Below are positions 16,207-39,905 of a DNA stretch of 44,323 nucleotides, piece by piece (within the stretch, counting starts at the first letter, position 1; every line of letters begins with the position of its first letter). This stretch comes from Paludibacter sp. (lineage in GTDB: Bacteria; Bacteroidota; Bacteroidia; Bacteroidales; Paludibacteraceae). The stretch covers positions 1 to 44,323 of the forward strand of contig JAQVNN010000012.1 in assembly GCA_028703105.1 (NCBI GenBank). The letters are read 5' to 3'. A model generated the notes under the pieces. It made no database searches. It worked only from the letters and a program-made list of their open reading frames with translations, and was not told where the DNA came from. The translations under genes were made by a program, and so were the position numbers.

Positions 16207-16403
16207 ATAAAAAAGATACATTTCATTATTGCTTGATTCTTTTGATGTCAAAATTTTAACAATGAATTATGAAAAAAGTTCAAATGAACTTTGCGTGTAT
16301 GAATAGTGAATTTTTATTGAAGAAAGGATTGGTTTTCCCTATTTTTATGTTTTATAACAGAAAAAATAAGAAAACGAATAGGGTGGATTTCTTTGAAATT
16401 ATA

Positions 16404-16446
16404 TACTTTTGTAGTGTTTTTTTCATTTCAGACAAAATTATCTTTG
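16404..16446 (+). promoter_or_regulatory. Two -7 boxes upstream of the PAS kinase operon
   Basis: TACTTTTG (16404-16411) and TATCTTTG (16439-16446) both match TAnnTTTG on the plus strand. The second ends 21 bp before the ATG at 16468. This supports that start over the in-frame ATG at 16393, which would lie upstream of both boxes. Neither has a clear -33 element. Confidence 0.5.
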
Positions 16447-16467
16447 GTAAAGATCAATAAAAAAGGT

Positions 16468-18033: not shown

Positions 18034-18055
18034 TGACTTTTTAAAAGATAATGTT

Positions 18056-18487
18056 ATGGACGATAACAACGAAATTGTAATTTTGATTGCCGAAGATGAT
18101 GACGGACATGCAGAACTGATAGTGGAAGGACTTCGGGATACCGGACTGAAAAACAAAATTATCAGATTTGATAATGGTCAGGATATATGGGATTATCTCG
18201 TTGAAGCATGTAAAGAGGGTATCCCTGTCAACAACAAAGAGTTTATTGTCATGCTTGACATCAATATGCCACGTGTTGATGGAACTGAAGTTTTGAGAAG
18301 GATTAAAAATCAGAAATGCATGAAGAATATCCCTGTTATCATGTTAACAACAACGGACGATCCCCGTGAAATTGAAAAATGTTATCAGTTTGGTTGTAAT
18401 GTTTATATTACAAAACCGGTAGAATTTATTAAATTTGCAGAGACATTACAAAAACTGGGATTTTTCTTACAAATAATTAAGGTGTAA
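18056..18487 (+). CDS. Rcp1-like single-domain response regulator
   Basis: This is a 143-residue stand-alone receiver. Acidic residues E13, D14 and D15 (AEDDDGH), phosphoacceptor D68 (VMLDINMP), the threonines at 98-100 (LTTTDD) and K120 (ITKPVEF) are all present. The longer loop after strand 2 and the LTTTDDPREIEKCYQ segment are typical of Rcp1-type regulators that serve PAS kinases. The ATG at 18056 is chosen because the frame upstream reads through the end of the kinase gene. It has no output domain, so it must act by protein contact or as part of a relay with the next gene, which starts 1 bp after its stop. Confidence 0.9.
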   Translation: MDDNNEIVILIAEDDDGHAELIVEGLRDTGLKNKIIRFDNGQDIWDYLVEACKEGIPVNNKEFIVMLDINMPRVDGTEVLRRIKNQKCMKNIPVIMLTTTDDPREIEKCYQFGCNVYITKPVEFIKFAETLQKLGFFLQIIKV

Positions 18488-18488
18488 C

Positions 18489-20778: not shown

Positions 20779-20813
20779 AAAAACCCCTGTTTACAGGTTA
20801 AGGTAAACAGGGG
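20779..20813 (-). terminator. Intrinsic terminator of the receptor/DUF4249 operon
   Basis: CCCCTGTTTAC at 20784-20794 pairs perfectly with 20803-20813 around an eight-base loop. On the minus strand the hairpin is followed by TTTTTC, so it terminates the leftward operon ending at 20844. It also separates that operon from the convergent signalling gene. Confidence 0.85.
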
Positions 20814-20843
20814 CAAGAGCAGAATATACAACACTTTCTTAAC

Positions 20844-21668
20844 CTATTCAATTACAACACTTCTGCGGTGAACTGTATGGGCGCTGAAATAACCAAGTTT
20901 TGCTCCTGAAATATTGCTTACGGGATTTGTATTTGTTGTTCCTTGAATAATATTATTCATGGTGCTGAATCCATAAAAATAATCGTAAACAGCTTTTGAA
21001 ATTGATTGCATCTCGACAGTCAGGGTGTCACCTTTAGTAAGCTTTCTGTCAACACAAGTCAAAAAACTTTTATTGTCTTTTCCGTTGTTAAATTTGTCGT
21101 TTTCTACATAGGATGCAATTACTTTTCCATTGACATACTCAACAAAACGGTAGTAGTTGGTTTCATTTCCCGGATCGGTATATTCAACGATGACTTCCCA
21201 TTCGGGCATTTGAATTTGTTCAATTTCCGGTAAAATTGATTTTCTAACCCTTAACCTGTTTATGAAAACCGGTTTGGGCATTTTGTCTTCCGATTTAATT
21301 TCACTGATATTTTCGTCTGTTGCAACAGAAAGGGTGTAGTTTGAGCCGGGAACTCCTTTGATTTTGGATGAACGGTAACGACCGGGTGCTACTTCGTATA
21401 ATGTTTCAGAGGTTCCGAATCCGTCTTCTAAAACGACAGAAGCATTGGTAACTACGTTGTGGGTGTTTTGGTTGTTTATATTGACGGTTTTTGACAAAAT
21501 CACTTCCGCATATTGTGATTCAGGAACAAATGCTTCAACAACAAGTTCCGGGTCAACTGTATCAAATTCAAACTCTACGGTTTCTGTGCATGATGTTAAG
21601 ATAGATGCTAACATCAAAAATGGAATTAATAATCCATTTACTCTGTTGATGATGTGTGATGTTTTCAT
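20844..21668 (-). CDS. DUF4249 family lipoprotein
   Basis: The 274-residue protein starts with a lipoprotein signal (LLIPFLMLASILTSC), with lipid-carrying cysteine C27. It is therefore attached to a membrane, probably the outer one. The mature part starts with FDTVDPELVVEAFVPESQYA and continues through repeated beta-rich segments such as TNASVVLEDGFG and YEVAPGRYRS, the pattern of DUF4249 proteins. These are commonly encoded next to TonB-dependent receptors in Bacteroidota. Here it starts 12 bp after such a receptor, so it is probably its surface or periplasmic partner. The biochemical role is not known. A SusD-like protein is ruled out by size and lack of TPR helices. Confidence 0.85.
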   Translation of the reverse strand: MKTSHIINRVNGLLIPFLMLASILTSCTETVEFEFDTVDPELVVEAFVPESQYAEVILSKTVNINNQNTHNVVTNASVVLEDGFGTSETLYEVAPGRYRSSKIKGVPGSNYTLSVATDENISEIKSEDKMPKPVFINRLRVRKSILPEIEQIQMPEWEVIVEYTDPGNETNYYRFVEYVNGKVIASYVENDKFNNGKDNKSFLTCVDRKLTKGDTLTVEMQSISKAVYDYFYGFSTMNNIIQGTTNTNPVSNISGAKLGYFSAHTVHRRSVVIE

Positions 21669-21680
21669 AACTTTTTATTT

Positions 21681-24002
21681 TTAAAAGTTAAAATTATACG
21701 TGATTGACGGTATAGCAGTGAATAAATAAGTCATAACTGCATATGTCTTCTCTGGATCTGAAGGGTCTTCTTCGAAATTTATCGAAAACGCATTTTTACG
21801 TGCATACGCGTTATATACTGAAAAATTCAGGCTGCTCTTATACTTTCTTTTGCTTTTAAAGTTCCAGGTTACCCCCAAATCCAATCTGTGATAATCAGGC
21901 ATCCGGTTGCCGTTTCTGATATTATAGTAGTATTTAACTTCATCATTAATTTTGTATTTTCCACTCGGGAAGGTAACTGCATTCCCGGTTTGATAAACCC
22001 AGGTCGCCGACATTGTCAGGTACTTTGTCAGTTCGTAAATTCCTACAACTGAAACATCGTTTGTGATATCCTGACGGGCAGGGTACCAGTTTCCATCATT
22101 AATACCCGGAATACTGAGTTCGGTTCTGGACAATGTGTAACCTATCCAACCATTAAGCTTCCCATATTTTTTCTTTAGCATCAGTTCAAGTCCGTACGAT
22201 CTTCCATTTCCAGTAACTAATTCTCCTTCAATATGTTGATTAGCCATGACGTCGGGACTATTTCTGAAGTCAGTCTGATCGTGCATCCATTTGAAATATG
22301 TTTCAGCAGAAAACTGATACATGTCATTCTTTATATTGTGAAAATAACCGGCAGAAATCTGGTCGCTGTTTTGGGGCTTTACATTTTTGCTGGACATAAT
22401 CCATATATCAACCGGTAAAGAAACATCTTCAGTGGTAGTAACCATGTGAATATGTTGCGAGTTGGTTGAATAAGCCATCTTCAATGATTGACGGGGATTG
22501 ATGATGTGGGTAATGCTCAGTCTTCTTTCGGGTGTGAAATAAGATTTTACGACTTCGTTTCTTTTGTAAGTTGTTGAATCAGTCAACACCCCATCTTTAT
22601 ACTGATAAAAGATACCCGGTCCAAACGACCTGAAGGTATTTAACCTGATGCCGAAGTTGATGATCCACTTTGGTGAAGGCTTAAATTCGTTGCTGAAATA
22701 GATGGCGTTTTCTCTTCCATTTCTCTCCTGAATTTTCATCGGGTGAAATGTGGCATTTTCATCGGCTAGCAACTGACCGGGAGTAATGTTGTATAAAATA
22801 TAATCGTACCCCAATGTAAATCGGCTGTTCTCGTTTAAGAAATAATGAAATTCATGCTTGAAATTATAATTTTTTATACCTGAAAGAAGGCTGATTACAG
22901 AAGGCTCAAAAGCGAGATCAACTTTGTAGTCGAACTCGCTGTAGATGATAGAGGTGTTACTGAATAGTTTGTCGTACCAGATATGATTCCATCTGAATGT
23001 TGCAGCACGGTTTCCCCAACCCAGTCCAAAATGGTCCGGAATCCCAAAGGCATCCCGGCCCGTATAGGCCGAGAGGAAAATCCGGTTTTTTTCATTGATT
23101 TTGTAGTTGATCTTGGCATTCAAATCGTAAAAATTCAAGGTGTTGTTCTTCAGGTCCGGATCACTGGTCAGTTTCAGCAGCATATCAACATAGGTTCTTC
23201 TGCCCGCAAGGAAGAACGAACCACGATCTTTTACAATTGGACCTTCAATGGCGAGTCTGGATGAGATCAGCCCGAGTCCGCCACTTACTTCTAACGACTG
23301 ATTGTTGCCATCTTTCATCCTGATATCCATTACAGATGAAATTCTGCCTCCGTAAGATGCCGGTGCAGTTGCTTTGTAAAGTGTCATTTCTTTGATGGCG
23401 TCACTATTAAAAGTCGAAAAGAATCCAAGCAGGTGATTGGGATGATAAATAGTTGCTTCGTCCACTAATACTAAGTTGTGTGAGTTATTGCCTCCTCTTA
23501 CATTTAATCCGCCGTTTCCGTCCCTGACAGATGTTACGCCCGGGGTAAGAGAAACGGTTTTCATGATATCCTGTTCTCCAAAAAATACAGGGATATCTTT
23601 AATTTCACTGATGAGTATCTTTTCTATTCCGATGTTGTTTTGAACAATGTTTTCATTTCGTTTGAAAGGAAAAACATTTACTTCCCGGAGATCGGTTACC
23701 TGAACTTCCATTTTGAAGTCATGACGGATGTTGTTGTTGTTGTTCACCTGATAAGTCAGCGTTTTATATCCAATGTAATTGATTTTTAAAGTGAAAACTC
23801 CTTCGGGAAGGGTAAGTACATAATATCCGTAAGCATTGCTTGAAATCCCGGTTCCCGGTAGTTCTTCGATGGTGATTGTGGCTCCTCCCAGTGTTTCGCC
23901 GTTTTCTATGTCGGTAACTGAACCGCTGATTGTATGTCTTGTCTGTGCCCCGAGAAGAGAGACAAAATGTATAAGGAACAATATGTAAATAAAACTCTTC
24001 AT
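21681..24002 (-). CDS. TonB-dependent outer-membrane receptor with carboxypeptidase-like N-terminal domain
   Basis: The protein is a 773-residue outer-membrane receptor. I start it at the ATG at 24002 (MKSFIYILFLIHFVSLLGAQ), which gives a proper signal peptide; a seven-codon extension would need a TTG start. Residues about 22-105 are a carboxypeptidase regulatory-like beta domain (ISGSVTDIENGETLGGATI). The plug follows (NIGIEKILISEIKDIPVFFG, then VRDGNGGLNVRGGN), and the remainder is a 22-strand-type barrel ending in TAIPSITYNFNF. There is no STN domain, so anti-sigma signalling is not expected, and no SusD partner is present. The transported substrate is unknown. It lies between a small winged-helix-like gene and DUF4249. 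Confidence 0.92.
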   Translation of the reverse strand: MKSFIYILFLIHFVSLLGAQTRHTISGSVTDIENGETLGGATITIEELPGTGISSNAYGYYVLTLPEGVFTLKINYIGYKTLTYQVNNNNNIRHDFKMEVQVTDLREVNVFPFKRNENIVQNNIGIEKILISEIKDIPVFFGEQDIMKTVSLTPGVTSVRDGNGGLNVRGGNNSHNLVLVDEATIYHPNHLLGFFSTFNSDAIKEMTLYKATAPASYGGRISSVMDIRMKDGNNQSLEVSGGLGLISSRLAIEGPIVKDRGSFFLAGRRTYVDMLLKLTSDPDLKNNTLNFYDLNAKINYKINEKNRIFLSAYTGRDAFGIPDHFGLGWGNRAATFRWNHIWYDKLFSNTSIIYSEFDYKVDLAFEPSVISLLSGIKNYNFKHEFHYFLNENSRFTLGYDYILYNITPGQLLADENATFHPMKIQERNGRENAIYFSNEFKPSPKWIINFGIRLNTFRSFGPGIFYQYKDGVLTDSTTYKRNEVVKSYFTPERRLSITHIINPRQSLKMAYSTNSQHIHMVTTTEDVSLPVDIWIMSSKNVKPQNSDQISAGYFHNIKNDMYQFSAETYFKWMHDQTDFRNSPDVMANQHIEGELVTGNGRSYGLELMLKKKYGKLNGWIGYTLSRTELSIPGINDGNWYPARQDITNDVSVVGIYELTKYLTMSATWVYQTGNAVTFPSGKYKINDEVKYYYNIRNGNRMPDYHRLDLGVTWNFKSKRKYKSSLNFSVYNAYARKNAFSINFEEDPSDPEKTYAVMTYLFTAIPSITYNFNF

Positions 24003-24026
24003 ATAATATCTAATCTGTTGCAAAAA

Positions 24027-24248
24027 TCAGAAGTCTTGATTACGGAAAAATTTTAAGTTGTTGTATTTTGAATCATAAACCGGAAAATAGCAATCGTCAA
24101 CTTTTTGAATTTTCCCTTCATCGAGCAAGTTTTTCGTAACATAGCCCAACTTCATCCTTCTTTCACCCAGCGGTTTTTCCATGTCCGAAATCTTCACCCC
24201 ATCTGAGTGTTCGTTGATGAATTCCAGTACCTTTGTTTTAAGATTCAT
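24027..24248 (-). CDS. Small winged-helix-like protein, possible regulator
   Basis: This is a 73-residue protein with no signal or membrane segment. The pattern KTKVLEFINEHSDGVKISDMEKPL followed by RRMKLGYVTKNLLDEGKIQKV and YFPVY looks like a helix-turn-helix with a C-terminal beta wing. This is the layout of small winged-helix DNA-binding domains, but the assignment rests on pattern only. It starts about 58 nt after a predicted sigma-54 transcription start and ends 24 bp before the TonB-dependent receptor. It would be the first gene of that operon. It may be a local feedback regulator, but this is unproven. Confidence 0.6.
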   Translation of the reverse strand: MNLKTKVLEFINEHSDGVKISDMEKPLGERRMKLGYVTKNLLDEGKIQKVDDCYFPVYDSKYNNLKFFRNQDF

Positions 24249-24316
24249 GACTGCAATGTTTAATGTTAAATAATATGCTTTCGCCGTATCGTCACTTCCC
24301 TTTGTGCTTATACATT

Positions 24317-24332
24317 TGCATAAGGCGTGCCG
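24317..24332 (-). promoter_or_regulatory. Candidate sigma-54 promoter (-24/-12)
   Basis: The minus strand reads CGGCACGCCTTATGCA. The GG (24331-24330) and GC (24319-24318) are exactly 10 bp apart, GGCACG matches the -24 element, and TGCA matches the -12 element. Mismatches to the consensus TGGCACG-N4-TTGCA are C for the first T and A for the first T of TTGC. The predicted start is near 24306, giving a 58-nt leader before the ATG at 24248. Confidence 0.68.
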
Positions 24333-24337
24333 AAATA

Positions 24338-24353
24338 CACTACTATTGTAGTG
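24338..24353. promoter_or_regulatory. Perfect 16-bp inverted repeat beside the sigma-54 promoter
   Basis: CACTACTATTGTAGTG has 6-bp perfect arms around TATT and ends 6 bp upstream of the -24 element. It could be an operator, for example for the small winged-helix-like protein, but no binding protein is known. Confidence 0.4.
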
Positions 24354-24400
24354 ATTTCTCTGATTTTTTGTTTAATAGGTTGATAATCAAGAAAATAACA

Positions 24401-24426
24401 AGGGTGCTCTATGCGTAGAACACCCT
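24401..24426 (-). terminator. Possible terminator of the seven-gene signalling operon
   Basis: A 10-bp stem with one mismatch (24401-24410 with 24417-24426) closes a six-base loop. On the minus strand it is followed by TGTTATTTTC, a weak T-rich tail. It lies between the activator gene and the sigma-54 promoter, where a terminator would be expected. Confidence 0.45.
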
Positions 24427-24475
24427 TTATGTTAGGTCAGACAGAAGAGAGATTAAGGAAAGTGCATTAAATTAT

Positions 24476-24499
24476 CGCACACTTGTGCGAAAGCGCACA
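24476..24499. promoter_or_regulatory. Candidate upstream activator sites (TGTGCG/CGCACA)
   Basis: Three alternating half-sites are present: CGCACA at 24476-24481, TGTGCG at 24484-24489 and CGCACA at 24494-24499. The last two form a perfect 16-bp inverted repeat with a 4-bp centre, the size typical for NtrC-family dimers. The centre lies about 185 bp upstream of the predicted sigma-54 start, in the usual enhancer range. No T-run follows on either strand, so a terminator is less likely. Confidence 0.55.
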
Positions 24500-24501
24500 C
24501 T

Positions 24502-25896
24502 TTATTTAAGATTTTTTCCCTTAAAAACAGAGATATTGTATTTTTTCATTTTTCTGATCAGTGAATCACGCGAAATACCAAGTAGATCAGATGCAGCAGT
24601 TTGGTTGTAGTTACAGGAGTGCAGCGCCTCAAGAATCATTTTTATTTCGTTTGATTTTAAATTTACTTTGTCTGCTGTGTGAACAAGTTGTTTCTTTTTT
24701 GTCGATTTGAAAGGAAAGTCATTGATATTCAGCTGATTATTTTTACATAGGATGACGGCTCTTTCTGCCATATTTTTTAATTCTCTTACATTTCCTGGAA
24801 AATCGTAATGCATAAGTGCATCAAAAATCTCTTCAGCAATTTTAACTCCGGGCTTATTAAATTTTGTGGCATATAACCCTACATAATATTCAAGTAAAGG
24901 TCGGATGTCGGAGGTACGTTCGCGAAGCGGCGGAATGTGAATATGCAGGGTGTTAAGTCTGTGCAGTAAATCGAGCCTGAATTTTTTTTCTTCCACTTGT
25001 TTCTCAATGTCGTGGTTAGTCGCGGAAATGATGCGAAAATCAGTTTTGATAGGAACGGTGTCGCCGACGCGGGTAATTACCTTTTCTTCTGTTGCACGTA
25101 GAATTTTGGCCTGCAGATTGAATGGCATGTCTGCAATCTCGTCGAGAAAGAGCGTTCCGTTATTACAGGCCTCAAAAAATCCCATTTTGTCGTTGATAGC
25201 ACCGGTAAAAGATCCTTTTTTGTGCCCGAAAAATTCGCTCTCAAGGAGTGTTTCAGCAATGGCACTGCTGTTAACCGCACAAAAAACATTGTCTTTACGT
25301 GGACTTGAGAAATGGATGATTCGGGCGATGTTTTCTTTTCCTGTTCCGCTTTCTCCGGTAATTAGTACATTAGCATCCGGGTATTGTGCCGCTGTTTTAG
25401 CCTGTTCATAAACTTTCAGTGTCTGGGGACTTACCCCTATAAACTGCCGTTGAATCTTTTCTTCTAAGGTTTTGGAAATAAGGGAGTTCTTTTCCTCCAT
25501 TTGTTTCAGCTTGCGCTGCATCTGAAGATATTTCTGAGTACGTTCAATCGCAATTTGTATGTCAATAAATCTGAACGGTTTACGCAGGTAATCAAAAGCG
25601 CCGAGGCGCATGGCTTTGATAACAGTATCCATGTCACCATGAGCTGAAATCACAATTACTTCAATAGAAGGTTGTTGCTCTTTAACTTCTTTCAGGATAT
25701 CAAGTCCGCTTATTCCGGGCAGCCTTACATCTAATATCAGCAGGTCAATATTTTTTTCTTTTAATATTCTTCTGCCATCGCCTACATTGTTTGCCTCATA
25801 AGCTTCATAATCATCTTCAAAGAAGCTACTCAGTTCTTCCGTAAATTGTTTTTCGTCATCCAGAATCAGGATTTTTATTTTATCTTTTTCTTCCAT
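24502..25896 (-). CDS. Sigma-54-dependent response regulator, NtrC family
   Basis: The protein activates sigma-54 RNA polymerase when phosphorylated. With the ATG at 25896 it has 464 residues. A receiver (1-125) has phosphoacceptor D56 (LLILDVRLPG) and K106. The AAA+ domain (about 150-390) has Walker A GESGTGKE (181-188), Walker B GTLFLDE (247-253) and the sigma-54 contact loop as GSFTGA (228-233). This loop has serine where GAFTGA is usual. A Fis-type HTH (about 431-454, NQTAASDLLGISRDSLIRKM) ends the protein. It overlaps the upstream kinase gene by 17 bp, so the two are coupled. It is the last gene of the signalling operon, and a predicted sigma-54 promoter lies downstream. Confidence 0.95.
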   Translation of the reverse strand: MEEKDKIKILILDDEKQFTEELSSFFEDDYEAYEANNVGDGRRILKEKNIDLLILDVRLPGISGLDILKEVKEQQPSIEVIVISAHGDMDTVIKAMRLGAFDYLRKPFRFIDIQIAIERTQKYLQMQRKLKQMEEKNSLISKTLEEKIQRQFIGVSPQTLKVYEQAKTAAQYPDANVLITGESGTGKENIARIIHFSSPRKDNVFCAVNSSAIAETLLESEFFGHKKGSFTGAINDKMGFFEACNNGTLFLDEIADMPFNLQAKILRATEEKVITRVGDTVPIKTDFRIISATNHDIEKQVEEKKFRLDLLHRLNTLHIHIPPLRERTSDIRPLLEYYVGLYATKFNKPGVKIAEEIFDALMHYDFPGNVRELKNMAERAVILCKNNQLNINDFPFKSTKKKQLVHTADKVNLKSNEIKMILEALHSCNYNQTAASDLLGISRDSLIRKMKKYNISVFKGKNLK

Positions 25897-27478
25897 GTTG
25901 TGTGTTGTTAATATTGAAAACAAGCCTGATTTTAGTCATCGTCATTTTGGAACTTACTACCTCAATGATACCTCCCATATCTTTGATGATCTGATAGGAT
26001 ATTGAAAGTCCGAGTCCTGTGCCTTTTCCTTCTTCTTTTGTTGAGAAGAAAGGAAGCATGATATTGTTGATGATTTCATCGTTGATACCGGTTCCGTTGT
26101 CGGTGATTTCAGCGATCAACATATTCAAATTCACAAAGGTGTTGATGCTGATATGGGGTATGTATGATTCGTCACCAAGCATTTTTTTCTCCATCACGGC
26201 ATCTTTGGCATTGGTAAGCAGGTTGATGATAACTTGTTCGAACTGGTAGGTGTTTCCAACTACATCAGGAATATCGTCTGAAAGATAAGTGTCTAAACTG
26301 ATACCCAGGTGTTTGAATTGTTCCATGATCATAGAAACAGCGTTTTCAATACTTTTATTGATGTTAAAAGCAATGGGTATATATTCAAACTGGTTTCTCG
26401 AGAACACCCTGATGTGGTCGATGATGTTTCTGATACGCGTAAGATTTTCGAATATTTTACTTGATTTGTTTTTCATGTAGGGCACATCGATAAAATCCAT
26501 TTTTTCCGCATCAAATAAAATCTTATCCATCACCATCGAAATGATATTTAGAGGCTGATTAATTTCGTGCGCCATGCCGGCTGCCATCTGACCCAGGTTG
26601 GCCATACGGTCGGCATGAATTTGTATAGCCTGCATTTTTTTTCGTTGAGAAATATCACGGACTACCGTATTATATGATAATGGAGAACCATCTGAATTTT
26701 GTATCAGTGTAGTACTGATTTCAGCCAGAAAATGCGTTCCATTTAGTTTAACAAGGTTGAGTTCAACATCTTGTGTGAGTCCTTCTGAAATTGTATTCTG
26801 GGCAATGTCTTTAATTGTTTTTAGCGAGCCCGGGGAAATAAAACGCAATATATGCATGCCAAGTAGTTCTTCTTTTGAATTCGCACCCAAAAGTTCTGTC
26901 CCGATATCGGATATTTCCCTGATTCTTCCTTTTAGGTCAATGAATATAACGCCATCGGGAGAGGCGTTTACCATGCTTCTGAATTTCTGTTCGCTCTTCT
27001 GAAGGGCAAGGTTGGCCTCTTTTAACTGTTCAGTTGTATTTCTTAATAAAATGGCATCTGTTAGTATGGTCTGTTTTTGATGGTATAAATCAAGGAAAAT
27101 ACTGACCTTACTTTTTAAGATCTGGCTGGAAAAAGGTTTGTAAATATAATCGACGGCTCCGGCATCATACCCTTTAAGTTCTTCAATTTCACTGAAAATA
27201 TTGGCTGTGATGAAAATAATAGGAACCTTGTTCTCTCTGCGTTCATCGTTAATTTTAACTGCCAATTCATATCCGTTCATGCCGGGCATCCAAACATCGA
27301 TAATGGCCATTGCCAGGGTCATCCCGCAGGTTTTTTCCAGGGCTTCGTAACCTGATAAGGCACTGATAATATTGATGTTGAAATTTTTGATAACACTTTC
27401 GATGTAAATCAGGTTCTCTTCAATATCATCTACGATCAATACGTTGGCCGGGATATGTTGATGTGTAAGTTTGTCCAT
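25880..27478 (-). CDS. REC-PAS sensor histidine kinase, probable partner of the sigma-54 activator
   Basis: The 532-residue soluble protein has an N-terminal receiver (1-130) with D61 (AIIDVWMPGMNG), T91 and K114. A PAS domain (about 164-280, ending VVRDISQRKKM) is followed by an NtrB-like kinase core. GMAHEINQPLN gives phosphohistidine H304. The ATPase part has VIINLLTNAKDAV, TDNGTGINDEI and GKGTGLGLSISYQII. Its reading frame runs 17 bp into the following activator gene, so the two are translated together and are probably cognate. The N-terminal receiver means its activity can be set by another kinase, most likely one of the three upstream. Confidence 0.93.
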   Translation of the reverse strand: MDKLTHQHIPANVLIVDDIEENLIYIESVIKNFNINIISALSGYEALEKTCGMTLAMAIIDVWMPGMNGYELAVKINDERRENKVPIIFITANIFSEIEELKGYDAGAVDYIYKPFSSQILKSKVSIFLDLYHQKQTILTDAILLRNTTEQLKEANLALQKSEQKFRSMVNASPDGVIFIDLKGRIREISDIGTELLGANSKEELLGMHILRFISPGSLKTIKDIAQNTISEGLTQDVELNLVKLNGTHFLAEISTTLIQNSDGSPLSYNTVVRDISQRKKMQAIQIHADRMANLGQMAAGMAHEINQPLNIISMVMDKILFDAEKMDFIDVPYMKNKSSKIFENLTRIRNIIDHIRVFSRNQFEYIPIAFNINKSIENAVSMIMEQFKHLGISLDTYLSDDIPDVVGNTYQFEQVIINLLTNAKDAVMEKKMLGDESYIPHISINTFVNLNMLIAEITDNGTGINDEIINNIMLPFFSTKEEGKGTGLGLSISYQIIKDMGGIIEVVSSKMTMTKIRLVFNINNTQHGRKR

Positions 27479-27513
27479 GGATGTTCAGCGGTGTTTTTTG
27501 CGTGTAAATTTAA

Positions 27514-29223
27514 CTATTTTTTTTCATTTTCTGTCCTTAAATCAACGGGTGGAGCTGATTTTGCCGGGCAAAAAGGCAGTGTGAAATAAAAACAGGAGCC
27601 TATACCTTCTTCGCTTTCTACCCAAATACTGCCACCCAGCATTTCTATGTATGATTTTGAAATAGACAAACCCAATCCAGCTCCTTCATAATGACGATTC
27701 TTTCCCTCACTGACTTGTCTGAATCTTTCAAAAATAATTCCTATTTTATCTTTGTGAATCCCGATTCCGGTATCTTTAACAAAAAATACCAGTGATTCAG
27801 GTTTTTGAATCAAATCAACAGGTAAATACCCAAATTCTATGGTTCCCTGGTTTGAGTATTTGATGGCATTCTTTACCAGGTTGGTAAAAATCGCGAAGAG
27901 TTTTTCCCGGTCAGTTCTGATGATGGCTTTTTCGTCGGGAAGTGGTTTTTTACAGGAAAGCTGCATTTTTTTTTCTTCTACTTCCGGCTTAAAGAAGCTG
28001 TAAATAAAGTCGATTTGTTCATTGATGTCCGAGTCTGATATATTGATTTCTATTAAACCGGCTTCAATTTTAGAAATATCAACAATGTTGTTGATAATGT
28101 TGAGCATACGTGCTCCGCTTTTCTCAATAATATGGATGTACTTTTGTTGAATTTCGCTGGTCAGGTCAGGCTCTTTCAACAATTCGGCAAAGCCAAGTAT
28201 TCCATTCATCGGAGTGCGAATCTCGTGGCTCATGTTTGCCAGAAACGCGGTTTTAAGTTTATCGCTTTCTTCCGCTTTTTCTTTAGCGGCAATCAGATCT
28301 TCCAGTAATTGTTTTTTTTGTGTAATATCTTCTGTTACAATCACGAAATTGGTCGTTTCTCCCGATGAACTAATGATGGGGGAGATGACGGCATTCACCC
28401 AGTAGATTTCGCCGTTTTTTTTCTGGTTCTTAATTTCACCCATCCAGTCTTTCCCTGATAAAATTCTTTTCCAAAGGTTGTTATAAAATGTGTCGGGTTG
28501 AAGTGTCGCTTTCAGGAGAGAAGATGCGCTTCCAATTACTTCGTCTTTCTCATAACCTGAAATTTTCAAGAAAAAAGGATTCGTGTAAATAATATTACCC
28601 TCTAAGTCAGTAATGATGATAGACACAGAGCTTGAGTCAACTGCCCGTTTAAAAAGTCGGGTCTGTTCTTCACTCTCTTTCAGTGCAGCTTCACTTTTTT
28701 TTCTTTTCTCATTTTCTGCCTGGAAAAATTTAAGCAGGTTAAGTGTTTCTGAGTGTGTTTTTTGTAATTCACTGGTACGTTCTTCAATCAGTTTTTCAAG
28801 CCGTTCTTTTTCATTTTTTTTCATGATGGTGGCTTCCCTGATTTTCATCATAGCCCTGATTTGAGCAGTCAGCTCACTTGTATCTACTGGTTTTGACAAG
28901 AAGCCTTCAGCTCCGGCTTCGAGTGCCTTGATGCGATTTCGTTTGTCATCTTTGATGGCCGTTATGAAAACAACCGGGATGTCAGCGGTTTTGGAATGAG
29001 CTTTTAACTTTTTACAGACTTCATACCCATCCATTCCGGGCATGATGATGTCAAGTAATATAATATCAGGTGCTTTTTCAAAAGCAATTTCAAGTCCCTT
29101 TACCCCGTTTAGCGCGGTCATAGTTATCGCGTTTGGGAATACCTCGCTGATCAACGCTCTTATAATAATCAGGTTGTCGCTGTTATCGTCAATAGCCAGG
29201 ATTTTTATTTTCTCGTGCTGCAT
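27514..29223 (-). CDS. REC-PAS hybrid sensor histidine kinase
   Basis: A 569-residue soluble protein. The receiver (1-125) has D58 (IILLDIIMPGMDG), T88 (VFITAI) and K111 (LSKPVD). A charged coiled coil (about 130-190) links it to a PAS domain (about 190-305, ending VTEDITQKKQ). A HisKA domain with NMSHEIRTPMNG (H333) and an ATPase domain with LVKNAIKYSNQG, DTGIGIHKDKI and GAGLGLSISKSYI complete it. It has no C-terminal receiver. It lies 11 bp after the HK-REC gene and 35 bp before the next REC-PAS kinase. It may take phosphate from the HK-REC protein or phosphorylate its own receiver. Confidence 0.93.
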   Translation of the reverse strand: MQHEKIKILAIDDNSDNLIIIRALISEVFPNAITMTALNGVKGLEIAFEKAPDIILLDIIMPGMDGYEVCKKLKAHSKTADIPVVFITAIKDDKRNRIKALEAGAEGFLSKPVDTSELTAQIRAMMKIREATIMKKNEKERLEKLIEERTSELQKTHSETLNLLKFFQAENEKRKKSEAALKESEEQTRLFKRAVDSSSVSIIITDLEGNIIYTNPFFLKISGYEKDEVIGSASSLLKATLQPDTFYNNLWKRILSGKDWMGEIKNQKKNGEIYWVNAVISPIISSSGETTNFVIVTEDITQKKQLLEDLIAAKEKAEESDKLKTAFLANMSHEIRTPMNGILGFAELLKEPDLTSEIQQKYIHIIEKSGARMLNIINNIVDISKIEAGLIEINISDSDINEQIDFIYSFFKPEVEEKKMQLSCKKPLPDEKAIIRTDREKLFAIFTNLVKNAIKYSNQGTIEFGYLPVDLIQKPESLVFFVKDTGIGIHKDKIGIIFERFRQVSEGKNRHYEGAGLGLSISKSYIEMLGGSIWVESEEGIGSCFYFTLPFCPAKSAPPVDLRTENEKK

Positions 29224-29234
29224 ACAGAAGTCTT

Positions 29235-31841
29235 TTATTGTGCTGAAGAACTATTTTCCGGCTCTTTTGATTCATTGTTCGATAAGTGATTATTTGTTTT
29301 TGAAACCATCCCTGATACCGTTTTTAGCAAGTCATCACGTCTGACATCGCCTTTTTGAATTAACTGGTAAATATGGTTTTGCCGGAGGAATTTCAGCTCT
29401 TCTTTGGTAATGTGTTTGGCTGATAGAATAAGTACCGGTATGTGCATGCTACGTTCATTATTCCGGATAATTTCCAGTACACCAAAACCATCTATACCTG
29501 GCATCATCAAGTCAAGTATAATGGCATCAGGAATGATGTGGTTCATGGTTTCAATGCCTTCGTTGCCATTTCGTGCAACAACAACCATGTATCCACTTTC
29601 TTCCAGAAAGTCTTTGATTTGAATTACAGCAGATTCATTGTCTTCAATTAAGAGGATAGTCGTTGATTCATTAACCGGAAGCTGTGTATGCAAATCATCT
29701 AATGTGATGTTTTCTTCAAATGTTTTGTTGTCTTCCAATTCATCCGTGTTGTATAACGGGAGGGTAAGTGTAAAAGAAGAACCTTTGCCAGGCTTACTTT
29801 CTACTGAAATAGAGCCGCCTAGCAAGTTAGCGTATTTTTTGGCAATCGATAATCCAAGTCCTGTTCCACCAAACCTGCGGGAGGTGCTTTCGTCTGCTTG
29901 TCTGAATTCTTCAAAAATATGTGATAGCTGTTCTTCTTCTATTCCAATTCCTGTATCTGTGACTGTTACGGACACTTCATCAATTGATTTTTTTAACTGA
30001 ACAGAGATTTCTCCTGTTTCAGTAAATTTCACCGCGTTTCCGATCAGGTTTTGTAAAATATGTCTGATTTTCGTTTCATCACTGGTTATGCGGGTTTCAC
30101 AATCACCTCTTACCTCGTTGATTCGGATGTTTTTTTCCACTGTTTGCGGGAGGATTAAGGAAATTGTTTCGTTCACACAGTCGCACAAGTTAAATTCAGT
30201 AAGCTCAATTTCTTCTCTCCCTGATTCAATCCTGGCGATATCGAGTATGTTGTTAATCAACGCAAGTAAATTTTTTCCATTCCGTTCAATCACTTCCAGG
30301 TAACTGTATTCTTCTTCCGGAATTTGGTTTGCAAGTTTCCGGTTCAGCACGCCCGAAAGTGCAATCACAGAATTAAGTGGCGTTCTGAGTTCGTGACTCA
30401 TGTTTGACAGGAAACTCGTTTTTAGGTTGTTTGCTTGACGAAGCATCTTTTTTTGAATTTCCAGTTCACGGTTTTGTTCGGTAAGTTCAGCAGATTGTAT
30501 GGATAGTTCTCTTTTTTGTTCTTCGAGCTCGTGGTTTTGTGTAGCAAGCGATTCGGAGAATAATTTGATTTTTTCGTATGTGAGGATTTTATCCACTCTT
30601 GCACAATATGTCAGGTGAATCTTTTTGATTAGCTGAATTGCCTGGTCGCTATATGGATGAATGTTGGCTAATGAGATGATGGCAATAATATCGTTTCCGG
30701 ATAAGATGGGAATGGTAATAATCTCTTTTGGAATAACATTTCCTCCGGTTGTTTTAAAGATATAACGGGTATCTTCGGGAATGTTTTTGATGTGCTGAAT
30801 ACGTTTCAGCGCAATGACGTTCCCGAATTCACCTTCCAGGTACGTCGCTGAAAAGGATTTGCGTGCTCTTTCGGCTAAACCAATGGATACGAAATGATTA
30901 AACGCTGTTTTATCTTCATTCAGCAAATATACAGCTGCCATTTCCGACTTAGTATCTTCCATCAGGATTTGCAGTGTAACCCTGAAAAATTCTTTTACAT
31001 CATCTTCTATCAGCATCATGTCTGCAAGTAAAGCAGTTTTGACATTCAAATCAGCCGTGATTTGAATATTCTCGGCGAGGGTGTTGAATGATTTGGCCAA
31101 TTCGCCAATTTCATTCTTCGATTCAAAAGTACACCGTGCAAGCATGTCTCCCTGATCGAAACGCCGGGTGATTTTTGTCAGTTGTACCAACGGTTTCCTG
31201 ATATTTTGCAGTAAGCTAAGATATACAATTAACGTGAAAAGAATGAGTACGAAAAATAAAATGATCAGCTCCTTAAGCATCAAATCTTTGATTTTTTCTG
31301 ATTTAGCATAAATAAAATCGCTGTGTTTTTTTGAAAAATCATCAATAAATTCCACTTTTTTCAGTAATTCTTCTCTGAGTTTTCCAATAGCTCCTGTTGT
31401 AGAAATACTTTCTTTTACAGAATCCAGTCTCTTTTCTGTTGTTAAGCGGATGTTTATTTTACGAGCAGTTTCCCAGGCAATAAATGCTTTTCGTGCTGCT
31501 TCAACATCTGCTTCGGGTCCGGGATACAACTGTCCAATGATGTTAAACTGGTGCAGGATGTCGGCCGCTTTTTCTTCGATGAATTGCAGTGCATCCCTTT
31601 CTTCGAAGGCGTTGGTGGCAAACATCAAGTCATTCGTTCCCAGGCGCATTAGGTGAATGTCGGTGGTTAAAATGCCGATAGCTCTCCGTACTTGTAAAGT
31701 GTGTGTATATATGCTATGGGTTTGTTCCCGTATTTGTCTGTTTTGACTGTAGGTAATCATGCCTATACATGATGCTAGTACTAATATTGTGGCAAAACCG
31801 AGCAAAAGTTGTGTGCCTATTTTTAGATTTTTGATTCTCAT
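29235..31841 (-). CDS. Membrane-bound hybrid histidine kinase (four-helix sensor-HAMP-GAF-HK-REC)
   Basis: An 868-residue protein with a chemoreceptor-like front end. TM1 is about 8-30, an all-helical periplasmic domain (about 31-188) resembles four-helix-bundle sensors, and TM2 is about 189-211. A HAMP domain (about 212-262) and a GAF domain (about 270-415) follow. A coiled coil of repeated E/Q/L-rich units (about 430-470) leads to HisKA NMSHELRTPLN (H483). The ATPase has LIGNAVKFTETG, DTGIGIEEEQL and GGTGLGLSIAKKYA. The C-terminal receiver has the aspartate in IILDLMMPGIDG, but IQKGD in place of the usual KP. It starts 22 bp after cheR. It is the only kinase here with a full periplasmic sensor. 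Confidence 0.93.
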   Translation of the reverse strand: MRIKNLKIGTQLLLGFATILVLASCIGMITYSQNRQIREQTHSIYTHTLQVRRAIGILTTDIHLMRLGTNDLMFATNAFEERDALQFIEEKAADILHQFNIIGQLYPGPEADVEAARKAFIAWETARKINIRLTTEKRLDSVKESISTTGAIGKLREELLKKVEFIDDFSKKHSDFIYAKSEKIKDLMLKELIILFFVLILFTLIVYLSLLQNIRKPLVQLTKITRRFDQGDMLARCTFESKNEIGELAKSFNTLAENIQITADLNVKTALLADMMLIEDDVKEFFRVTLQILMEDTKSEMAAVYLLNEDKTAFNHFVSIGLAERARKSFSATYLEGEFGNVIALKRIQHIKNIPEDTRYIFKTTGGNVIPKEIITIPILSGNDIIAIISLANIHPYSDQAIQLIKKIHLTYCARVDKILTYEKIKLFSESLATQNHELEEQKRELSIQSAELTEQNRELEIQKKMLRQANNLKTSFLSNMSHELRTPLNSVIALSGVLNRKLANQIPEEEYSYLEVIERNGKNLLALINNILDIARIESGREEIELTEFNLCDCVNETISLILPQTVEKNIRINEVRGDCETRITSDETKIRHILQNLIGNAVKFTETGEISVQLKKSIDEVSVTVTDTGIGIEEEQLSHIFEEFRQADESTSRRFGGTGLGLSIAKKYANLLGGSISVESKPGKGSSFTLTLPLYNTDELEDNKTFEENITLDDLHTQLPVNESTTILLIEDNESAVIQIKDFLEESGYMVVVARNGNEGIETMNHIIPDAIILDLMMPGIDGFGVLEIIRNNERSMHIPVLILSAKHITKEELKFLRQNHIYQLIQKGDVRRDDLLKTVSGMVSKTNNHLSNNESKEPENSSSAQ

Positions 31842-31863
31842 GTTTTCTATGTGTGTTTGTCTT

Positions 31864-32688
31864 TTAATATTTTCGAAAAATGGCTGATTGTGGATATATT
31901 TCTTTAAAATGATGTTTCATCAAAATATCTCTTTCTGTCTCACCGGTTATCAGAAAGCCTTTTTCTGTCATGACGGCTTCAATCTTATCCAGTATTATTT
32001 TCCGGAATTTTTCTTTGTAATAAAAAAGCAGGTTTACACAAAAAATTATATCAAAATGCCCGAAAATACTTGCAGGTGGACAGCAATATTGTTTGTTGAA
32101 CAAATCAAAAACCGAAAAGCTGATTTTTTCTTTTAATTCCTGTTTAATGTGATAAGTGTTATTATATTTGACAAACCACTTATCTAGTTGATATAAGCTG
32201 ATATTATCTAAAGCATGTCGTGCATATTGTCCTTTTAGGGCGAGCTTAACTTGTTCTTCATCTTTGTCGGTTCCAAATATCAGACAGTTACATTTGCTGT
32301 CATTACAAACTTTTTGTTCTTCTATCAGCATCGCGATGCTATAAGCCTCTTGCCCGGCAGCACAAGCCGCCGACCAAATTCGTAGGTCTTTAGACTGGTT
32401 ATTTTTTGTCTCCGCAATCAATTCCGGGAGTACAATTTTTTCTAAGGTGTAAAATGTGAGAGGATTACGAAAAAAAGAGCTGTATCCAATTTGCAAACTA
32501 TCATAAAAAGTCATTCTCTCCAGTTCGCTGTCTTCGAGTAATTCAAGATAATCTTCAAAAGAAGAGCATCCGGTTGCAGCACATCTCCTTTTAGCTGAGT
32601 TGATTAAAAAAGTTTCATCATATCGTGAAATATTCATTTCATCGTGATTAATAAAAATGTCGTTGATATGATAGGCGTGATTATTCAT
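31864..32688 (-). CDS. CheR-like protein methyltransferase
   Basis: CheR enzymes methylate glutamates of chemoreceptors using S-adenosylmethionine. The 274-residue protein has the CheR N-terminal helices, then GYSSFFRNPLTF, which contains the FFR segment of the family. The SAM site is WSAACAAGQEAYSIAM (105-120), followed by FGTDKDEEQVKLALKGQY (138-155). The late motif is FDIIFCVNLLFYY (212-224) where canonical CheR has FCRNVLIYF; the arginine is replaced by valine. No CheB and no methyl-accepting receptor is in the window. Placed between a receiver and a chemoreceptor-like kinase, it may modify that kinase or act as an adaptor. Confidence 0.88.
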   Translation of the reverse strand: MNNHAYHINDIFINHDEMNISRYDETFLINSAKRRCAATGCSSFEDYLELLEDSELERMTFYDSLQIGYSSFFRNPLTFYTLEKIVLPELIAETKNNQSKDLRIWSAACAAGQEAYSIAMLIEEQKVCNDSKCNCLIFGTDKDEEQVKLALKGQYARHALDNISLYQLDKWFVKYNNTYHIKQELKEKISFSVFDLFNKQYCCPPASIFGHFDIIFCVNLLFYYKEKFRKIILDKIEAVMTEKGFLITGETERDILMKHHFKEIYPQSAIFRKY

Positions 32689-32732
32689 GTTCAGTTATTC
32701 AAGAATAAAATGATGTGTTTCAATTGAATCAA

Positions 32733-33134
32733 TTAGTTGGCATTTTTCTCATCACATCCATCAGAAAATTCAGCTATGGTATCTTCTATTTCCCTGGATA
32801 TTTCTTGTATGTTGAATGGCTTTCTGAAATACCTTCGGATAATTCCCTGACTAAGTGCCTCCTGAATTTCATCGCATATTTCAAAACCGGTTAAGATAAA
32901 ATAAGCTATTTCAGGGGCAATCAATCTTGCTTTTCGGATGAATTCCATTCCATTCATTACCGGCATTTTCATGTCAGTGACAACTATTTTAATGTATTTG
33001 TCTTCAGCAATATACTGAAGTCCTGTGAATGCATTTTCTGCTGTGAGTACATGGTACTTTTTCTCAAGGTTGGCTTGAAAAAGCATTAAATTAATGGCCT
33101 CATCGTCAACATATAATATTTTTACTTTTCTCAT
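32733..33134 (-). CDS. Single-domain response regulator
   Basis: A 133-residue receiver with D10/D11 (YVDDEAIN), phosphoacceptor D54 (VVTDMKMPVMNG), T82 (FILTGF) and K105 (FRKPFN). Only a short C-terminal tail follows, so it has no output domain. The VVTDMKMP pattern is the type often seen in receivers that work with HEINNP kinases. It starts 1 bp after the stop of such a kinase, so the two are probably cognate and coupled. It could hand phosphate on to the downstream kinases or to the CheR protein. Confidence 0.92.
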   Translation of the reverse strand: MRKVKILYVDDEAINLMLFQANLEKKYHVLTAENAFTGLQYIAEDKYIKIVVTDMKMPVMNGMEFIRKARLIAPEIAYFILTGFEICDEIQEALSQGIIRRYFRKPFNIQEISREIEDTIAEFSDGCDEKNAN

Positions 33135-33135
33135 A

Positions 33136-34230
33136 TTATTTAAATTTAGCCGGTAAAATAATAGTTACTGAAGTCCCCTTTTTTATAGTTGATTGAAATT
33201 TGATTGTGCCTTTGTGTGCCTGAATGATGTTGTAAGTAATTGATAACCCAAGTCCGGTTCCTTTCCCGGGTTCTTTGGTTGTGAAGAATGGATCAGTGAT
33301 TTTTGAAAGTTTATCTTTACTGATACCGCACCCTGTGTCAGTAATAGTTATCACTGCATTGTTGTTTGTTATTCCGGTTGTAATTGTTATTGAACCTTTT
33401 TCTTCAACAGCATGGTATGCGTTGACAATAAGGTTGATAAAAACCTGATGAAGTTTTCCGACATTACCGGGAATTATGATTGGGGTATCGGAAAAATGTT
33501 TTTTTATTTCGATAGAGCCTTTTAATTCGCCTTTGGTGATGAGCAGCGAATTATTGATAATAGCATGTAAATCGCAAGGTTCACGGTAATTCTCACTGGC
33601 GCGGCTCATCTGGTTTAGTCCCGTCATGATGGAAGTTGCCCTCTCAATGCCGGTTTTGATACTATTCAGATACAACTCTACTTTTTCATCCCTGATATTT
33701 TCATCCCTGATATAGTCTTGAAGTCCGGTAAGTCCGCCCAGTATAAAATTAAGTGGATTGTTGATTTCATGGGAAATACCTGCCGTCAGGATACCCAGGG
33801 ATGCCATCTTTTCAATTTGGATAAGCTGAAACTGGGTTTCTTTTAATACTTTTAGCGTTTTTTTTAGCTCTGCATTTTTCTTGTTAATGATTTTATTTTT
33901 TTCATTCAGCTTTGAGTTGGTGTTACTGAGTGCTTCAATGGCCTCGTCCAGATTCTTTGTTTTTTCCTGAATTAATTCTACCAGATTGTTTTTGTGTTTT
34001 TCCAGTTCACTCTCTGTGTTGCGAAGTTTAGTTAGGTGCTTGCTGATGAAAAAATAGAAAAAAATTGCCGTTATGATGACGTAAAAAAACCCCTTCAAAG
34101 TTTGAAGCCTGGTTAAAGAGTTTATATCCCAAAATATGATTCCAAGAACTTTATCTGAAAATAAAATCCAGATTAATCCTAAAATCAAATAGAGGACTGT
34201 GATTCTATGTTCGAATTTAAGGTTTTTCAT
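33136..34230 (-). CDS. Two-transmembrane sensor histidine kinase, NtrB-like core
   Basis: A 364-residue kinase. I start it at the ATG at 34230; a six-codon extension would need GTG. TM1 is about 11-33 (LYLILGLIWILFSDKVLG) and TM2 about 44-62. The very short loop between them leaves little room for a periplasmic sensor. A long coiled coil (about 66-140) leads to GISHEINNPLN with H154. The ATPase has VFINLIVNAYHAVEEKG, DTGCGISKDKL and GKGTGLGLSITYNII. It is the first gene of the seven-gene signalling operon and begins 44 bp after the 3' end of tRNA-Lys on the same strand. Confidence 0.92.
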   Translation of the reverse strand: MKNLKFEHRITVLYLILGLIWILFSDKVLGIIFWDINSLTRLQTLKGFFYVIITAIFFYFFISKHLTKLRNTESELEKHKNNLVELIQEKTKNLDEAIEALSNTNSKLNEKNKIINKKNAELKKTLKVLKETQFQLIQIEKMASLGILTAGISHEINNPLNFILGGLTGLQDYIRDENIRDEKVELYLNSIKTGIERATSIMTGLNQMSRASENYREPCDLHAIINNSLLITKGELKGSIEIKKHFSDTPIIIPGNVGKLHQVFINLIVNAYHAVEEKGSITITTGITNNNAVITITDTGCGISKDKLSKITDPFFTTKEPGKGTGLGLSITYNIIQAHKGTIKFQSTIKKGTSVTIILPAKFK

Positions 34231-34274
34231 ACGCAGGGTAGGATGCACTTATCTAATTATTACCATTACCCTTG

Positions 34275-34347
34275 TGACCCCGGTGGGGTTCGAACCCACG
34301 ACCCACAGATTAAGAGTCTGTTGCTCTACCAGCTGAGCTACGAAGTC
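34275..34347 (-). tRNA. tRNA-Lys (anticodon CTT)
   Basis: On the minus strand a 73-nt cloverleaf is visible. The acceptor is GACTTCG with CGGGGTC (two T-G pairs), the D arm is GCTCAGCTGGTAGAGC, and the anticodon stem ACAGA/TCTGT holds loop CTCTTAA. The anticodon CTT corresponds to 34312-34314, and the T arm has GGTTCGAACCCC. The discriminator is A and no CCA is encoded. It reads AAG codons. It is the nearest upstream transcription unit to the signalling operon. Confidence 0.96.
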
Positions 34348-39784: not shown

Positions 39785-39842
39785 TATAGAAACAAATGAG
39801 TTGGAAATGAACCTGGAAATCAAGAAAAAAGGCAGGAAAATA

Positions 39843-39892
39843 CTTTTTAGCATTTTTTTCTGTGGTTGCAAGCGGCTCAAATCTTTCCACAT
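39843..39892 (-). promoter_or_regulatory. SAM-II-type riboswitch in the metK leader
   Basis: On the minus strand the parts of the SAM-II aptamer occur in order. The P1 arm TGTGG (39865-39861 reverse partner at 39891-39887) is followed by GATTT (39883-39879). TTGCAA (39871-39866) comes next, then the closing P1 arm, an A-rich stretch, and GCTAAAAAG (39851-39843), which forms the pseudoknot. The arrangement matches the alphaproteobacterial metX aptamer as I remember it. A perfect -7 box sits 14 bp upstream. A covariance-model search would settle it. Confidence 0.75.
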
Positions 39893-39905
39893 GTAGTTTC
39901 GGTTA

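Follow-up and report, generated by a model that had tools for sequence, protein, structure and literature searches.

The locus described here raises the question of how an operon for a TonB-dependent receptor comes to stand behind the gene of a sigma-54 activator, and whether the one controls the other. It lies in a 44,323-nucleotide stretch from a Paludibacter sp. (JAQVNN010000012.1 of assembly GCA_028703105.1; hereafter the window), a single contig of a 2.3-Mb draft genome (G000), in which a seven-gene signalling operon ending in an NtrC-type activator is followed by a short winged-helix gene (wH), the receptor gene and the gene of its DUF4249 lipoprotein partner. Sequence comparison makes it probable that the locus is an inherited two-component sigma-54 switch with an exchanged output. 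The pair formed by the activator and the kinase encoded before it (HK4) is recurrent. Slightly more than half of the family members examined have a palindromic operator downstream of the pair, usually followed about 150 bp further on by a -24/-12 element, and in many near relatives a gas-vesicle cluster comes next. The receptor looks like a replaced output, which suggests a swappable regulatory module.

A circuit conserved within the genus

The sequence-only reading of the window had proposed a leftward operon of four histidine kinases, a receiver, a CheR protein and an NtrC-type activator, and these seven genes are confirmed (Table 1); the domains of the receptor and the DUF4249 lipoprotein are likewise matched, and the winged-helix-like gene has that fold in a predicted model. 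The half-sites it saw at 24476-24499 resolve into CGCACA-N2-TGTGCG (24476-24489, plus strand) and an overlapping TGTGCG-N4-CGCACA, one TGTGCG half being common to both. The near-consensus -24/-12 promoter at 24317-24332 also stands: by a weighted score devised for this analysis it is one of two sites in the 44 kb, both strands counted, that score this high or higher, and among 4000 Markov-shuffled gaps 0.5% reach the same level. Some points needed correction. The operons do not face each other but run in the same direction with a terminator-like hairpin between them, and comparable hairpins can be seen by eye in the other receptor-type gaps; the distance from operator centre to the -24 GG is 151 bp, not about 180 bp; and 'self-contained' is too strong a term for a circuit whose RpoN is encoded elsewhere (one PF04552 match in G000, away from the circuit) and whose kinase-activator pair stands in L036 and L037 with no matches to the other five signalling genes adjacent.

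The synteny check proposed with that reading was run on 48 genomes of the genus searched with wH, seven of which carry the gene. In all seven the order activator, gap, wH, receptor, DUF4249 protein is kept, with HK4 before the activator (L035 is cut by the contig end), as is the promoter, with scores of 13.8-15.0. The N2 palindrome is present within two mismatches in five, the half-sites of the other two being rearranged. Activator identity was checked over 36 of the genomes, and proteins at least 78% identical occur in five, the same five of those 36 that have wH. The window, L034 and L145 have the complete set of signalling genes, the receiver and CheR genes being about 1.4 kb further apart in L034 and L145; L055/L144, a single locus, has the genes from the receiver onward, where the stretch fetched ends. 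The earlier view that the relay controls the receptor operon is thus upheld in part: the cis-acting circuit passes the conservation check, while the wider gas-vesicle-linked family, the match of wH to gas-vesicle proteins and the replacement of the output had been missed.

The activator has a receiver, an AAA (Sigma54_activat) domain with GSFTGA loop and Walker A motif GESGTGKE, and a Fis-type helix-turn-helix (HTH), and scores under the cut-off of every NCBIfam model among the matches listed (25 of 118). By eye, a phospho-acceptor histidine motif is present in all four kinases and an aspartate at the expected place in the receivers. The open reading frame (ORF) called for the activator begins at TTG, with an in-frame ATG nine codons further on. 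A control site upstream of HK1 was considered and rejected, since that region has no -24/-12 match scoring at least 14.3 and no exact operator.

A perfect inverted repeat with 7-bp arms is not rare alone (11% of 800 shuffled gaps), so it is conservation, not symmetry by itself, that raises the palindrome above chance. The N2 and N4 patterns each have one exact copy in the 2.3-Mb draft genome and two more matches with one mismatch. These further copies were rejected as operators: the best -24/-12 scores 60-260 bp either side of the N2 copies are at most 11.8, and both N4 copies lie inside long ORFs.

Table 1. Features of the switch and the receptor operon in the window
Feature	Position	Strand	Remarks
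HK1, membrane histidine kinase	33136-34248	-	HisKA-HATPase; first gene of signalling operon
Receiver	32733-33134	-	single-domain
CheR methyltransferase	31864-32688	-	
HK2, hybrid kinase	29235-31841	-	4HB_MCP-HAMP-GAF-HisKA-HATPase-REC
HK3, kinase	27514-29223	-	REC-PAS-HisKA-HATPase
HK4, kinase	25880-27478	-	REC-PAS-HATPase, weak HisKA match; as a rule paired with the activator, in loci of both receptor and gvp type
NtrC-type sigma-54 activator	24502-25923	-	REC-AAA-Fis
Overlapping palindrome	24484-24499		TGTGCG-N4-CGCACA (plus strand); arrangement retained in L036/L037
Operator palindrome	24475-24490		TCGCACA-N2-TGTGCGA; conserved core of half-site array
Terminator-like hairpin	24400-24427	-	ends signalling operon; between operator and promoter
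-24/-12 (sigma-54) promoter	24332-24317	-	CGGCACGCCTTATGCA
wH, winged-helix gene	24027-24248	-	74 codons
TonB-dependent receptor	21681-24023	-	CarbopepD_reg_2 + Plug
DUF4249 lipoprotein	20844-21668	-	partner of the receptor
Terminator-like hairpin	20783-20814	-	closes receptor operon

The receptor pair and its winged-helix gene

Of 247 genomes of the order, 199 encode a receptor homologous to that of the window (E <= 1e-100). Among the 19 loci returned from elsewhere, which are 45-51% identical, 18 include the DUF4249 partner in the flank. None of the 19 has wH or an orthologous activator within flanks of up to 1.5 kb (two weak matches of 26-28% only), and none has the operator within 700 bp upstream (4-6 of 12 mismatches). 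Within 400 bp upstream the -24/-12 score is at most 12.5 in 18 of the 19, so the receptor family seems to have no need of sigma-54 as a rule. The receptor ORF call begins at TTG, with an in-frame ATG seven codons further on, and neither the receptor nor the DUF4249 protein matched a solved structure at E <= 0.001.

The model of wH, three helices followed by two strands with pLDDT block means of 95-98 over residues 1-50, is predicted to be a winged-helix fold. Its best Foldseek E value is 8.1e-3, to Zalpha, MotA and MarR-like chains, with no match at E <= 0.001, and it matches no Pfam family (E <= 0.1) and no NCBIfam family (E <= 0.01). The ratio of nonsynonymous to synonymous substitution rates (dN/dS) is 0.05-0.11 in eight of the nine pairs with finite dS and 0.34 in L007-L008, six of 15 pairs being saturated, and we see in these values signs of purifying selection. 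In the second contig of the UR.bin82 genome (G027; L057:189-2524) wH is followed by a receptor matched as two pieces which, as they differ in frame, may belong to a broken or misassembled gene.

Relationship to gas-vesicle loci

wH matches the C-terminal domain of a protein encoded in gas-vesicle (gvp) clusters. Among 393 genomes of the order, the sample used for the wH and activator searches, 13 have wH matches at 14 places, 12 of them inside open frames of 385-441 codons; the remaining two are the window's own gene and a weak match (E 1.4e-4). The long proteins, coiled-coil-like by look, are clustered with GvpA, GvpN, Hsp20-like and GvpF-like genes, and the GvpA of L038 (G047) lies above an NCBIfam cut-off. 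A search of GTDB contigs with wH gave 24 loci: seven of receptor type, L066 and 16 gvp loci. Where upstream contig is sufficient, HK4 and the activator stand directly upstream of gvpA in ten of 11 gvp loci (L059, L060, L062, L067-L070, L073-L075), the exception being Chlorobium L072; in the remaining five the contig ends too early to judge. The query that found these loci was wH, not the activator.

No gvp genes adjoin the activator of the window. Profile PF00741, searched in a sample of 60 relatives, matches only G047 and G048 and has no match in G000, G003, G006, G010 or G027 (G437 and G438, the genomes of the genus that hold L145 and L144, were outside the search).

The activator phylogeny bears on the order of these outputs. 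In a tree of 50 rows (without duplicates L053, L056, L058, L061, L069, L039, L102, L105 and L110 and paralogues L020-L033) the seven receptor-type activators form one clade (100/100), which is nested in a clade of 18 rows (100/95) containing nine gvp-type and two other rows (L066, and L101 where the contig ends), with larger gvp-rich clades around. In a tree of 28 rows, a clade of gvp-type rows on their own is rejected by the approximately unbiased test (p-AU 0.0027); this tree was built without L073 (long branch), nine paralogues (L011-L019) and twelve other-output rows (L066, L101, L103, L108, L111-L114, L121, L123-L125). A gvp output first and a receptor output later is the likeliest order for the window's lineage as judged from these trees.

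Two features of the gvp loci were seen in passing. A conserved pattern GAGG..ACCGT..CCTC..ACGGT, which fits an H-type pseudoknot, is shared by 16 leaders from 14 loci (L059 at 7860-7893, L060, L062, L065, L067-L070, L074-L076, L106, L109, L140) in the stretch from the -24/-12 element to gvpA. Two-sided changes occur in two of the five pairs of stem 2, a number reached in 29 of 500 shuffles and a covariation score reached in 3 of 500. The leader matches no Rfam family at gathering threshold, and the pattern is absent from the window, L053, L055, L058 and L066. Near the gvp cluster of G047 (L038:11040-12338, minus strand) a protein combines sigma-54 DNA-binding and GIY-YIG domains, and among 44 loci tested only the same-contig copy L069 matched it.

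Operator geometry and recognition helix

Of 41 family members, 19 have the operator downstream of the activator with no more than two mismatches out of 14, and 23 have it with no more than three. The control set of 22 paralogues (36-47% identity; L021, which has no downstream sequence, left aside) has none, the best having five mismatches. In 22 loci with the operator at no more than three mismatches and a promoter score of at least 11.9 (L108, at 11.2, was dropped), the distance from operator to GG is 145-155 bp in 17 and 128, 138, 140, 141 and 171 bp in the others. The loci with other outputs span this range, with 149 bp in L111 (= L129), 171 in L117 (= L134), 140 in L120 (= L137), 128 in L114 (= L142) and 149 in L124 (the row of L141). 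A simple binomial test of this spacing overstates its significance because the rows are related. The distance from activator stop to operator runs from 6 to 380 bp over 23 loci, 14 of them at 6-31 bp.

The recognition helix of the window's activator reads ISRDSLIRK. In six rows of one gvp branch the corresponding residues are IHRDALSRK (five rows) or IHRDALGRK (L070), and none of the six has the CGCACA operator (5-6 mismatches). Clear palindromes stand 150-151 bp ahead of the promoter in L060 (CACGTA arms) and L070 (CGCGTA arms), and imperfect ones in L104 and L122; that of L059 lies at 157 bp, and none was found for L107 at the expected distance. In L068 (ITRDALTRK) a clear palindrome with CGCGC arms stands at 150 bp. 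Such branch-specific palindromes are easier to find because they were sought at the expected place. Recognition helix and operator altered together in branches provide candidate pairs for the specificity of Fis-type HTH domains, as read from sequence, and not a strict rule.

Other outputs of the family

The activator is found at E <= 1e-150 in 24 of 393 genomes of the order, and its outputs are several. L066 has HK4, the activator, the operator, a -24/-12 element and a stand-alone wH, followed by genes of 190, 264 and 902 codons, the longest of which encodes a carboxypeptidase-regulatory-like domain; we ourselves read this as a surface-protein operon. In L129 activator, operator and -24/-12 element lead to an ECF sigma gene together with large proteins. 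The switch is followed in L134 and L137 by C25 proteases that bear type IX tails, joined in L137 by a type IX-tailed S8 protease, and in L142 by secreted proteins with PorP/SprF. In L141 (9236-13061, minus strand) two tandem activators and a shorter receiver gene precede a very large protein, with one operator behind the first activator and another ahead of the large protein. No operator was found beside the activator in, for example, L039, L133, L135, L136 and L138.

Paralogous activators were considered as part of the same system and rejected, as the operator is absent in 22 and L042-L048 precede a different protein family. These last, same-genus activators of 43-45% identity, stand after hybrid-kinase genes and before one family of large proteins, and are a second regulator-output pairing without this operator.

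Interpretation

In the mechanism we propose, the kinases of the operon would feed phosphate to HK4 and the activator, and the phosphorylated activator would bind the operator, loop over the terminator and drive RpoN-polymerase at 24317-24332, so that the receptor pair would be made when the relay is on. The receptor pair, of a kind that ordinarily lacks the module, would have come under a flotation switch upon loss or replacement of gvp, and wH would be left over from the old gvp operon, still selected and perhaps a DNA-binding modulator. Whether this can be generalised to a portable Bacteroidota sigma-54 switch is, in our estimate, evenly balanced. Such a switch would comprise the kinase-activator pair with operator and -24/-12 element about 150 bp apart; its outputs (gas vesicles, TonB receptor, type IX-secreted C25/S8 proteases, PorP/SprF, ECF sigma, secreted-protein operon) would be exchanged, operator and recognition helix would change together in at least one branch, and the gvp wH domain would have come with the switch, regulating each new output in its own right.

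Several observations weigh against these readings. The operator is not found within three mismatches in 18 of 41 family members, among them the receptor-type loci L007 and L008, in which the half-sites are rearranged to TGTGCG-N4-CGCACA with an extra CGCACA. The odds of a portable switch are lowered by L112, L123, L118, L010, L116 and L119, where the recognition helix is unchanged or window-like and yet no operator is nearby. The rows of the spacing set are related, with five receptor-type rows close; the promoter taken in each is the top-scoring site of a 200-bp stretch, and some accepted promoters (down to 11.9) score below the best site found in some control receptor loci (12.5), one control receptor locus (L165) itself reaching 14.5. 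Helical phasing is inseparable from the cluster at 150 bp, a period of 13 nearly equalling 10.5. In L107 the gvp genes are about 4 kb off, with no GvpA within 1.5 kb of the activator. The genomes compared are drafts, with 75% completeness in two of the five without gvp. The activator tree has weakly supported forks, and its basal rows carry type IX-type or unassigned outputs, so that gas vesicles are only one possible first output for the family as a whole. Finally, all regulation of the receptor operon is something that we infer from sequence.

An alternative is that the module, built around an activator that all share, was assembled or spread independently from lineage to lineage, the gvp link reflecting horizontal traffic and not the ancestry of the window locus. 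That several outputs exist fits this, as does the occurrence of the module in contigs labelled Spirochaetales (L073) and Neomarinimicrobiota (L067), from which it follows that the module moves or was misbinned; however, wH is common to gvp clusters and the receptor operon and the receptor-type activators are nested inside the gvp-type, and we regard separate assembly as unlikely. Slightly less likely still is that the receptor operon is mainly under wH, a predicted winged helix and the first gene of that operon, or under an ordinary promoter, the adjacent activator being a functionless leftover. The low -24/-12 scores of 18 of the 19 homologous receptor loci would agree with this, but a leftover promoter and half-sites should decay, and both are kept in seven of seven loci (the half-sites in N2 form in five) with activator identities down to 78%. 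Least likely of the three, in our view, is that the CGCACA/TGTGCG palindrome is the terminator of the signalling operon and not an activator site: although in many loci it comes soon after the activator stop (at 6-31 bp in 14 of the 23), is trailed by T runs in L069 and L066 and is called terminator-like on the plus strand at 24484-24499 by a pattern scan, it stands at an almost constant distance from the promoter where that from the stop varies over 6-380 bp, its sequence beyond symmetry is conserved between families, and the window has a better terminator-like hairpin further on.

Comparison with known systems

An exchanged output on an inherited sigma-54 switch, the reading we favour, has partial counterparts. 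Classical NtrC-family systems have a palindromic site upstream of a -24/-12 promoter. AtoC, ZraR and NtrC have the same REC-AAA-Fis architecture as the window's activator; the CGCACA-N2-TGTGCG operator and the spacing of about 150 bp are, in contrast, features of the window's family. In Serratia sp. ATCC 39006 the sigma-54 NtrC-like regulator GvrA controls gvpA1, with a mapped start and sigma-54 consensus (PMC4982088). By its description GvrA resembles the window's activator as an NtrC-family protein and, being encoded with the gas-vesicle cluster, resembles the activators of ten of 11 related gvp loci; it differs in that its output is gas vesicles and that of the window a TonB receptor operon. 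The window's activator is also unlike the GvrA type in its linkage, with no gvp genes beside it and no PF00741 match in the genome. The available part of the GvrA account (PMC4982088) has no counterpart to the operator, the spacing, wH or the proposed exchange of outputs in the window family. Control of gas vesicles by NtrC and sigma-54 is therefore already known from GvrA, and what is new, as far as sequence comparison indicates, is the gvp link of the kinase-activator pair and its putative receptor output.

The receptor pair has a counterpart in BT2172-BT2173 of Bacteroides thetaiotaomicron, from a subfamily of TonB-dependent transporters almost always beside a DUF4249 protein (PMC11003636). 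By description the window's pair is alike, a CarboxypepD_reg and Plug receptor beside a DUF4249 protein; the available part of that account mentions no sigma-54 module, in contrast to the window. For the Flavobacteriia, sigma-54 control of an orthologue group of TonB proteins has been predicted and not confirmed, in a paper that nowhere uses the term gas vesicle (PMC12316311). We found no description of the present module in the literature, that on gas vesicles included, as judged from titles and abstract openings of the papers listed. The locus offers a clear natural case of regulatory rewiring, in which the same activator, operator and promoter geometry have another output while near relatives retain gas vesicles. 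The transplanting of a sigma-54 switch between operons becomes open to test here, and the locus also gives a starting point for studying how Bacteroidota control their gas vesicles.

Neighbouring features

A tRNA-Lys gene (CTT, 34274-34347) lies directly upstream of the signalling operon and forms the right end of the region of the sequence-only reading. In L036 the 3' end of this tRNA is, by eye, apparently repeated nearer the operon with a gene between (8089-8110 and 9587-9660), hinting at insertion at the tRNA; the window has no second copy of the tRNA end, and no tRNA was found in L034, L037-L039, L059, L062, L067, L129, L130, L144 or L145. On the other side, a second signalling set (16393-20735, plus strand), comprising a PAS kinase, a receiver and a receiver-bearing multi-PAS protein, is convergent with the receptor operon, and L054-L057 retain the last gene of this set on the far side of the DUF4249 gene. 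At 39837-39896 (minus strand) an ordinary SAM-II riboswitch lies upstream of a gene whose product we take to resemble S-adenosylmethionine synthetase.

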